Of a DNA stretch of 33,269 bases, positions 24,384-27,505 are shown piece after piece; the stretch's first letter is position 1, and each line of letters starts with the position of its first letter. The position numbers and the translations under genes were made by a program. The DNA is from Campylobacteraceae bacterium. Its GTDB lineage: Bacteria; Campylobacterota; Campylobacteria; Campylobacterales; Arcobacteraceae. The notes under the pieces were generated by a model, which saw only the letters and a program-made list of their open reading frames with translations, was not told the DNA's origin and did not search any database. Location of the stretch: assembly GCA_013215915.1 (NCBI GenBank), contig JABSON010000008.1:1-33269 (forward strand). Direction: 5' to 3'.

Positions 24384-24437
24384 TAAATCTAACAATAATA
24401 ATGTGTTAATATCTTCATTAATTAAATGGAGAGATTA

Positions 24438-25658
24438 ATGAGAAATTTTATAACTTACGAAGAGTCTATAAAAATCATGAATGATTTAGACTTAAACAAT
24501 AATACAAACGAAAAACTTTTTATATCTAATGCTCTAAACAGAGTGTTAGCTCACGATATTACAGCTGACCATAATAGTCCAGAATTACCTACTTCTGCTA
24601 TGGATGGTTACGCTATTAGATTTACTGACCAAGAAAAAACTTTTTTAAAAATAATTGATAAAAACCCAGCTGGTGAAGTTACTTCATCTAAAGTAGAAGA
24701 AGGCCTATGTATTAAAACTTTTACAGGTTCACTTATGCCTGAAGGTTCAGATACACTAATTCCAATTGAAAATGTTGAAGTAATAAATGATGAAATTAAA
24801 ATTATTTCAAAAGTTCCTTTAAACTTTGCAAAAAGAGATATTGGTGAAAACTACAAAAAAGACGAAGTTTTAATAAAAAAAGGTTCAATTATTGGATTTG
24901 CTGAAATTGGAGTTTTAGCTTCTTTAAATATCTCACAAGTTATGGTTTATTCACTTCCTATAGTAGCAATTGCCTGTACAGGAAGTGAAATCTTAGATTT
25001 AGGTGAGAAACAAACAAATGCTTCTCAAATTAGATCATCAAATCATTTAACTATAGAAGCTTTATGTAAAAAAGCTGGTGCGCAAACACTTCAAATGGGA
25101 ATAGTAAAAGATGACATAAACTCTATTACAAAACTAATGACTGAAGGTTTGCAAAAAGCTGATATTTTAGTAACTACAGGTGGAGTATCTGTTGGTGATT
25201 ACGATTTTGTGCAAGATGTAATAAAAGATAAACTACAAGCTGAAGTATTATTCCACGGTGTTACTGTTAAACCAGGAATGCATATTTTAGTAGCTAAAAA
25301 GAATAATAAACTTATTATAGCCCTACCTGGATTTGCTTACTCTTCAACTGTATGTGCAATTTTATATGTTTTACCTTTAATTTACAAACTTTCTGGATCA
25401 CAAAAAACTTTACCTTTTGTAAAAGCTAGAATAAATCAAGATTACAAAATGAAAATGAAAAAAACAATATTTACAGCATGTAATGTAAAATATGAAGATG
25501 CTGAATATAAAATTGATTTTGAAGGTAAAAAAGCTGGAACATCTGCTATTTTAACAAATCTATTACAAAGCCCTGCTTTATTAATGCAAGATGAAAACTC
25601 TAGTGATATTAAAAAAGATGATTTAGTAGATATTTTATTAATTAACGATATTAAATAA
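24438..25658 (+). CDS. moeA: Molybdopterin molybdenumtransferase MoeA
   Basis: Inserts molybdenum into adenylylated molybdopterin, the last step of molybdenum cofactor synthesis, in the cytoplasm. The protein is 406 residues from this start. Conserved blocks: LPTSAMDGYAI near 46-56, TGSLMPEGSDTLIPIE near 92-107, VTTGGVSVGDYDFV near 242-255, VKPGMHI and LPGFAYSSTV. The start at 24438 (MRNFITYEES) is preferred to the in-frame ATG at 24426, because GGAGAG lies 4 nt before it. The downstream DMT gene begins at the base after the stop, so the two are probably co-transcribed. Confidence 0.93.
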   Translation: MRNFITYEESIKIMNDLDLNNNTNEKLFISNALNRVLAHDITADHNSPELPTSAMDGYAIRFTDQEKTFLKIIDKNPAGEVTSSKVEEGLCIKTFTGSLMPEGSDTLIPIENVEVINDEIKIISKVPLNFAKRDIGENYKKDEVLIKKGSIIGFAEIGVLASLNISQVMVYSLPIVAIACTGSEILDLGEKQTNASQIRSSNHLTIEALCKKAGAQTLQMGIVKDDINSITKLMTEGLQKADILVTTGGVSVGDYDFVQDVIKDKLQAEVLFHGVTVKPGMHILVAKKNNKLIIALPGFAYSSTVCAILYVLPLIYKLSGSQKTLPFVKARINQDYKMKMKKTIFTACNVKYEDAEYKIDFEGKKAGTSAILTNLLQSPALLMQDENSSDIKKDDLVDILLINDIK

Positions 25659-26549
25659 ATGTCTTTAAAAAAAGTATACATATCTTTAGTTTTATGTGTA
25701 CTTTTTTGGTCTGGTAATTTTATTATTGGAAAATACTTAAATACAAATGTTGAAGCTGTTGAATTAGCTTTTTTCAGATGGTTTTTTGTATTATTATTTA
25801 TATTCCCCACACTATTTTTTGTAAATGTAAAAAAAATTATAAGAGTAACAAAAGAAAATATCTTTATTATGTCAGCGTTAGCACTATTAGGAATAACTTT
25901 ATTTAATACTATTGTCTATTCTGCTTTAAAAAGCACATCTGCTACGAATGCTTTATTAATTAATTCAACTACACCTTTAATGATTTTATTTTTCTCTTAT
26001 GTTTTTTATAAAACAAAAATACTTAAAATACAAGTTCTTGGAATTATAATATCTACTTTTGGTGTGGCTTTTTTAATTTTAAAAGGAAATATTTTAAATA
26101 TTTTAGATTTAGAATCACATTCAGGGGATTTATATATTTTATTATCTTCTTTGTGTTGGACCTTTTATTCTCTTTTACTAAAATTTAAACCAAAAGAGTT
26201 TAGGTTTTATGAGTTTTTTGTATCACTAGTAATTTTAGGTTTTATCTTTTTGCTACCTATATATTTATACCAAGGTTATTCTTTACAAGAAGAATTAAAA
26301 CAAATTCAAAACTACTGGTATTTTTTTCTTTATATTTCATTTTTCACTTCAATTCTTTCATACTTTTTTTGGAATATAGGAATAGATGAAATAGGAGCTG
26401 CTAAAACAGGTCAATTTACTCATTTAATGCCTTTATTTGGATCTTTTTTAGCTTATATATTCTTAGGTGAGAGTTTAAGTTTTTATCATATTATAGGTGC
26501 TTTACTAATTGCCGCTGGAATTTATCTTTCTTTGTTCGTTAAAAAATGA
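25659..26549 (+). CDS. DMT-superfamily (EamA) transporter
   Basis: Inner-membrane protein of 296 residues with ten hydrophobic segments and two EamA repeats (about 5-138 and 150-290). It begins VYISLVLCVLFWSGNFIIGKYL; the family-typical STSATNALLINSTTPLMILFFSY lies near 88-110. Its ATG follows the moeA stop with no gap, so it is probably translated from the moeA message. The substrate is unknown. It is a distant paralogue of the transporter at 20239-21153. Confidence 0.85.
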   Translation: MSLKKVYISLVLCVLFWSGNFIIGKYLNTNVEAVELAFFRWFFVLLFIFPTLFFVNVKKIIRVTKENIFIMSALALLGITLFNTIVYSALKSTSATNALLINSTTPLMILFFSYVFYKTKILKIQVLGIIISTFGVAFLILKGNILNILDLESHSGDLYILLSSLCWTFYSLLLKFKPKEFRFYEFFVSLVILGFIFLLPIYLYQGYSLQEELKQIQNYWYFFLYISFFTSILSYFFWNIGIDEIGAAKTGQFTHLMPLFGSFLAYIFLGESLSFYHIIGALLIAAGIYLSLFVKK

Positions 26550-26612
26550 TTTTACATTAAAAGTTTTGTGTTAAATTATATAAAAATAATATTACACACA
26601 TAATATGTTACT

Positions 26613-27023
26613 TTAGTAGTTTATTTTTCCTATTTTAAAGAAATGAGAACAATCATTTCTATTTTCTTTTGCGGCTTTTTCATAATCATATTTCACTCTT
26701 ATTAGTAATATCTAATATTAATAAGAAACATTAGAAGTAAAGTTTTTTACAGCTTATTTAGGTTCATCATAAATATAGGCTTATAGGCCAACAGAACCTT
26801 CTTTTATATATCTTCTGATTAATATATTAAATCACTTCTAGGGCTTCTGAGACACAAGTAAATATCAATAATAAGTTCTTCCCCTGCATGGCATCTTTGA
26901 TTAAGTAATTTAAAATATCCCAAGATTAACTTTCATATCAATACTTTTATTCTATAAATCTTTAAGAACAACTTCTAAGGCAAATACATTAAAATGAATA
27001 TCTGATAAAATTGCTATTCGTAT
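26613..27023 (-). pseudogene. Decayed metallophosphoesterase (YfcE/MPP-type) gene
   Basis: This gene-free stretch translates on the minus strand to recognisable pieces of a calcineurin-like phosphoesterase. The N-terminus reads RIAILSDIHFNVFALEVVLK, with the metal-binding DxH of LSDIHGN. After a stop it continues NKSIDMKVNLG. Near the end come GSVGL and AYIYDEPK, then VKNFTSN, then RVKYDYEKAA and SHFFKIGKINY, and a stop at 26615-26613. At least five stops interrupt it, a frame shift follows VNLG, the start codon is ATA (27023-27021) and the middle of the protein is missing: about 137 codons remain where the family has some 240. The start overlaps the end of the GNAT gene, so it was once the last gene of that operon. 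Confidence 0.85.
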
Positions 27024-27505
27024 ATCTTTTCTTTATTTAAAATCATTTTATATAAATAGTGTTTTATATCACTTTGTTTCTCTTTACTATTTTCATAGAA
27101 TTCATATTCACTAGTTATTTGAAAACCTAGTTTTTTATAACAAGATATTGCTACTACATTATCTTTATATACATTTAATTCAAAAGAAAATATACTTAAA
27201 TCTTTAATACTTTTATTAATTGCCAAATCAATTATTATTTCTCCAAAAGATCTTTTTCTAAACTCTTGTTTAACAAGAATTCTACAAAGTCTAAATCTTT
27301 TATTCTTAATACTTACTAATTCAATATAAGCTATTTTTTCTTTATCATATTCTAAAAAGTATTTTTTACTTGAGGTATCAGTAATTTCTTCTTTTTTTAA
27401 AGGCCAAGACATATCTGGACCTGCCCATATTAAACACTCACTCTTACTTTTAATCCAAGATTCAAGTATTTCAAAATCATCTTCTTTAAATTCAATTATA
27501 TTCAT
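27014..27505 (-). CDS. GNAT-family N-acetyltransferase
   Basis: A 163-residue protein with the GNAT fold. RLCRILVKQEFRKRSFGEIIIDLAINKS (about 81-108) resembles the acetyl-CoA-binding motif A; its Q/RxxGxG/A signature is changed to RKRSFGE. LNVYKDNVVAISCYKKLGFQ (about 114-133) is the typical motif B. It would move an acetyl group from acetyl-CoA to an unknown amine. It starts at the last base of the DUF711 gene, and its 3' end overlaps the metallophosphoesterase pseudogene. Confidence 0.78.
   Translation of the reverse strand: MNIIEFKEDDFEILESWIKSKSECLIWAGPDMSWPLKKEEITDTSSKKYFLEYDKEKIAYIELVSIKNKRFRLCRILVKQEFRKRSFGEIIIDLAINKSIKDLSIFSFELNVYKDNVVAISCYKKLGFQITSEYEFYENSKEKQSDIKHYLYKMILNKEKIYE

Follow-up and report, generated by a model that had tools for sequence, protein, structure and literature searches.

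What lies between the convergent genes for an EamA transporter and a GNAT acetyltransferase in the 33,269-nucleotide stretch of Campylobacteraceae DNA analysed here (the window)? The EamA gene (PF00892; 25659–26549, plus strand), preceded by a gene that we take from its sequence to be moeA-like (24426–25658, plus strand), ends at 26549. On the other side stand three intact minus-strand genes, GNAT (PF00583; 27014–27505), DUF711 (PF05167; 27505–28725) and YjbR (PF04237; 28719–29081). The ORF list contains no ORF of at least 40 amino acids inside the spacer, and no Rfam match was found in 26400–27200 at E-values up to 1, which ruled out an overlooked ORF and an RNA gene, respectively. A sequence-only reading had proposed that the minus strand of this spacer preserves, in order, both ends of a fairly recently inactivated, YfcE-like metallophosphoesterase gene, once the fourth member of a YjbR/DUF711/GNAT operon. 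We compared the genome under study (G000) with relatives, including the three others examined in its genus (G001–G003).

A decayed phosphoesterase gene in the spacer

The minus strand of 26622–27023 is almost certainly a decayed phosphoesterase gene, a relic of what we call the A-type 249-amino-acid family, as indicated by ordered tblastn and profile matches and by the intact gene that G001 and G002 have at this position. Its pieces occur in gene order along the minus strand. The N-terminal piece (27023–26919) reads IRIAILSDIHFNVFALEVVLKDL*NKSIDMKVNLG and shares 63% identity with the intact protein of G002 (tblastn, E 5e-12); it keeps the motif SDIH, contains one TAG (26952–26954) and overlaps with its first bases the 3' end of the GNAT gene. 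Its start position (27023–27021) is ATA, where the intact genes have ATG. It is followed by a first middle piece (26916–26878, ILNYLIKDAMQGK), weak alone and identified solely by alignment to the G003 remnant (FILSYLSKKVIQWMK), and by a second one (26866–26810, DIYLCLRSPRSDLIY*SED), recognised against intact proteins (tblastn, E 1e-4), in whose motif the ligand histidine has become leucine. The C-terminal piece (26807–26622), found by alignment and by tblastn against the G002 gene (G002A; E 3.5e-7), carries four in-frame stops and small internal deletions. The outer two pieces share a common frame and the two middle pieces lie in the other two. The disabling lesions thus comprise six stops in the matched pieces, all in-frame, several frame shifts and two large deletions. 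The lost ATG, the stops and the frame shift were read correctly from the sequence alone; the "deleted core" is right as to the large deletions, but the middle of the gene is kept between them.

These tblastn E-values come from a search space of two short sequences, and a shuffle control is the fairer test. We built a profile from 23 intact relatives, leaving out of the 24 family genes the one from G076, which has one internal stop. The best and second-best stretches of the remnant scored 28.5 and 27.5 bits and correspond to the two ends; none of 2000 dinucleotide shuffles reached 28.5 bits (top shuffle, 8.7), which bears out the claim of a decayed metallophosphoesterase with its ends in order. 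With the same profile, the only two other long spacers in the window gave -1.5 and -1.0 bits. The middle pieces alone scored 1.7 and -1.1 bits, not above the shuffles, and they therefore rest on tblastn (E 1e-4) and on the alignment with G003. Ordered homology to the intact metallophosphoesterase family is recognisable by both tblastn and profile, and the translated comparison did find similarity to phosphoesterases, at the three E-values given above. When the spacer DNA itself was searched against 60 relatives, 38 matched at E 0.01, mostly through A+T-rich matches of 20–60 bases; the informative matches were those to G003 (3.5e-42) and to the intact genes of G002, G001 and G017.

An intact counterpart at the same site

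Of the four genomes of the genus, G001 and G002 have a whole gene for a 249-amino-acid phosphoesterase. It comes directly after DUF711, beside and facing moeA, and YjbR flanks DUF711 on its far side. The two proteins (G001A and G002A) are 98% identical, and their dN of 0.010 against a dS of 0.156 indicates purifying selection. The intact protein keeps all seven metal-ligand positions inspected, which were chosen after the general pattern of the superfamily. It matches the YfcE family (PF12850, 73.6 bits; TIGR00040), as calcineurin-like phosphoesterases do, with only a marginal pass for TIGR00040 (56.7 bits; cut-off 56.25), a model of 158 positions that is shorter than this protein. Its score with the YfcE equivalog NF006988 (PRK09453), 52.5 bits, is far under the cut-off of 117. 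"YfcE-like" fits the A-type protein at the subfamily level only. The solved relatives 3qfm (270 amino acids; E 7e-14) and 3rqz (246 amino acids; E 2e-10) are both matched as well. The former is presumably SapH; a literature search for SapH with Ap4A or metallophosphoesterase found, in the portions of the sources that were accessible, no work on this protein. In contrast to these PF12850/TIGR00040 relatives, the gene in the window is broken.

A second, differently broken copy

In G003, moeA and EamA are followed by a broken copy of the gene, longer than that of G000 and broken differently, and YjbR, DUF711 and GNAT are found on a separate one. Since each of the two contigs stops in the remnant or at its edge, we infer the join between remnant and GNAT across the gap. 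The C-terminal half of the G003 relic is open, with a 131-amino-acid frame without any stop. Compared with G002A, this relic has changed at 116 of 209 third codon positions and at 81 of 209 and 74 of 209 first and second positions, respectively, a third-position excess indicating that it was once coding. Two oddities were seen by eye at contig ends of this assembly. About 100 bases inside the remnant at the end of G003:C147 (L005:2243-2339) are G+C-rich and unlike the rest, probably an assembly chimera, and the last bases of G003:C73 (L015:1977-1990) resemble the reverse complement of the remnant start, probably a contig-end artefact.

Age and mode of decay

The two relics were compared over three blocks (342 sites), omitting a stretch that aligned ambiguously. 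They differ at 61 of the 342 sites (JC 0.204), distributed over codon positions 1, 2 and 3 as 21/114, 17/115 and 23/113 (positions 1+2 versus 3, p 0.45). Purifying selection is thus not visible on the coding positions of the relic, although with only 342 sites weak or short-lived selection would escape. The JC value falls inside the dS range (0.09–0.29) that six neighbouring genes and the type-B paralogue show between the same two genomes. At positions 1+2 the relics have changed at 38 of 229 sites and these seven genes at 115 of 4098 (p 1e-16; the count of 115 was re-derived from rounded fractions). The relics have diverged more (61/342) than the third positions of the seven genes (204/2049, p 5e-5), and the rate match is therefore only approximate; in the small N-terminal block the third position has changed more than the other two (2, 2 and 6 of 23). 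Since the codon positions do not differ significantly and the rate lies within the synonymous range of the neighbours, the gene probably became free of selection before, or soon after, the split of the G000 and G003 species, and for the greater part of the time since then the remnant has probably shown no visible coding constraint. The "fairly recent" inactivation of the sequence-only reading has to be qualified in this sense.

The individual lesions give a complementary view. Inspecting the alignments by eye, we saw no lesion common to the two relics in the pieces that both genomes keep. The stop in the N-terminal piece of G000 and its first two C-terminal stops are sense codons in G003 (by eye), and at the other three stops the G003 sequence is missing or the alignment uncertain. 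The large deletions differ between the two, and the part that is broken in G003 is largely deleted in G000. The proline of an NPG motif, kept in 23 of 23 intact rows, is leucine in the open half of the G003 relic and glutamate in G000, which shows relaxation and not a shared event.

In trees of 23 of the 24 family genes, again without that of G076, the relics join the type-A genes G001A, G002A, G019 and G036a (support 100/99) on a long shared stem of 0.92 changes per column, without being specifically sister to G001A/G002A; their rows are partial (that of G000 is 44% filled), and the tree program issued a warning about long branches coming together at this join, which may be false. The gene left out (L052; G076:C9:46647-47381) has one in-frame TAA after 52 codons and is a possible pseudogene or a sequencing error.

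Origin of the remnant

These observations suggest that a functional 249-amino-acid calcineurin-like metallophosphoesterase gene, presumably already present in the ancestor of the genus, once lay between moeA and DUF711. Selective support for it would have ceased in the G000/G003 lineage, where it would have decayed as free DNA. Point mutations would then have produced the stops and the ATA at the start position in G000, indels would have broken the frame, and two large deletions would have shortened some 750 bp to about 400 bp, with a longer wreck staying in G003. The loss may have been tolerated because a type-B paralogue remains, along with two other PF12850 proteins. We lean towards selection having been lost a single time, before or near the G000/G003 split. 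Two separate losses, one in each lineage shortly after the split, would agree with the lack of a common lesion in the pieces that both keep, with the different large deletions and with the G003 C-terminal half being without stops. We regard them as rather unlikely, given that the codon positions show no significant difference since the split, that the relics share a long stem in the tree and that the NPG proline has changed in both of them, if to different residues, as expected of relaxation rather than of a shared event.

It is quite improbable that the remnant descends from a different A-type gene that was acquired, perhaps along with GNAT and EamA, instead of being the vertical counterpart of the G001 and G002 genes. 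The relics are indeed not sister to G001A/G002A, and GNAT and EamA occur at the site in G000 and G003 only, but neutral change alone could lengthen the stem, and the strand and the anchors moeA and DUF711 are the same as in G001 and G002. Both of these alternatives dispute only the history of the remnant, not its identity as a decayed gene. As for a working gene that only looks broken through errors of sequencing or assembly, the assembly is a fragmented draft of 435 contigs and the G003 contigs end oddly at the remnant; nevertheless, the genes on either side are intact, the matched pieces carry six in-frame stops along with several shifts and two large deletions, and a second assembly is broken there too, which leaves such an error a negligible probability.

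The remnant, for which we favour a single loss of selection, is an ordinary bacterial pseudogene resulting from ordinary gene decay. The pseudogenes of bacteria such as Salmonella likewise come from genes intact in relatives and disabled by stops, shifts and deletions, and in Salmonella the youngest ones reportedly tend towards quick removal (Kuo and Ochman 2010, PMC2916853). Our case does not differ from these in kind; the remnant is found in two species and differs between them. A literature search found no work on Arcobacter metallophosphoesterase pseudogenes.

The neighbourhood of DUF711

Had the YjbR/DUF711/GNAT operon once included a fourth member, as the sequence-only reading claimed? 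That G001 and G002 have the gene intact in the corresponding place implies that the gene cluster did include another member. However, GNAT, which is 97% identical in G003, has no match in G001 or G002 at E 0.001 and is absent from their moeA–DUF711 site, so that an old operon of all four genes need not be assumed. EamA is likewise present in G003 (94%) and absent from this site in G001 and G002; among the four genomes of the genus, GNAT and EamA accompany the site in G000 and G003 only, and moeA is an anchor common to all.

DUF711 is present in 20 of 100 genomes, and close relatives of the G000 protein in named records are 96% (isolate DT_7) and 77% identical (Arcobacter sp. NORP36), both from metagenome assemblies. 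A phosphoesterase adjoins it intact in two of the 20 (G001 and G002) and as a remnant in G000, to which the G003 remnant can be added across the contig gap. By coordinates, the other 16 genomes have no adjacent phosphoesterase match at E 1e-15, and none was seen in the seven of these 16 whose DUF711 neighbourhood was read (G006, G015, G017, G021, G024, G025 and G034) using open frames of at least 60 codons, which remnants would escape. As far as searched, among 100 relatives, the DUF711–phosphoesterase neighbourhood is restricted to this genus, which ruled out a widespread operon of the two. No work on DUF711 together with a metallophosphoesterase was found in a literature search.

Remaining paralogues

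Searching G000 with the intact G002 protein at E 0.01 returned only a paralogue on contig C120 (47%), the remnant and a weak match on C390, which ruled out an intact A-type copy elsewhere in this assembly; being about 93% complete, the assembly could lack a further copy. PF12850 has three matches in G000, on C390 (a 172-amino-acid frame), C120 and C135 (a 371-amino-acid frame). The C120 gene (L085:2825-3748) is the type-B phosphoesterase, with paralogues at L086, L035:4823-5659 and L038:4149-4943. Its dN of 0.035 and dS of 0.246 between G000 and G003 indicate that it is kept under purifying selection. In G000, the metal site of type B has lysine for His10, aspartate for Asn62, and asparagine and leucine for the two histidines of GHxH (DIK, GDED, GNSL). 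At least one of four ligand positions is changed in 15 of the 23 intact family rows, 13 of them with lysine at His10, and parsimony requires at least three changes between complete and incomplete ligand sets (on a tree from which those columns were left out and in which five forks are weak). From these residues we raise the tentative possibility that the lineage has given up the one catalytically complete member of the subfamily that it had, type A, and kept the eroded-site type B, which may be non-catalytic or differently acting, the enzyme itself being dispensable. A literature search on metallophosphoesterase pseudoenzymes with metal-binding found nothing.

By itself, the remnant is of little importance, one more bacterial pseudogene. 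It serves as a control showing that what looks like an empty spacer is the remnant of a gene, and it offers a roughly neutral yardstick for comparing two uncultured species of Arcobacteraceae. If the type-B reading is true, the retention of a paralogue with an eroded metal site would hold some interest for pseudoenzyme research.
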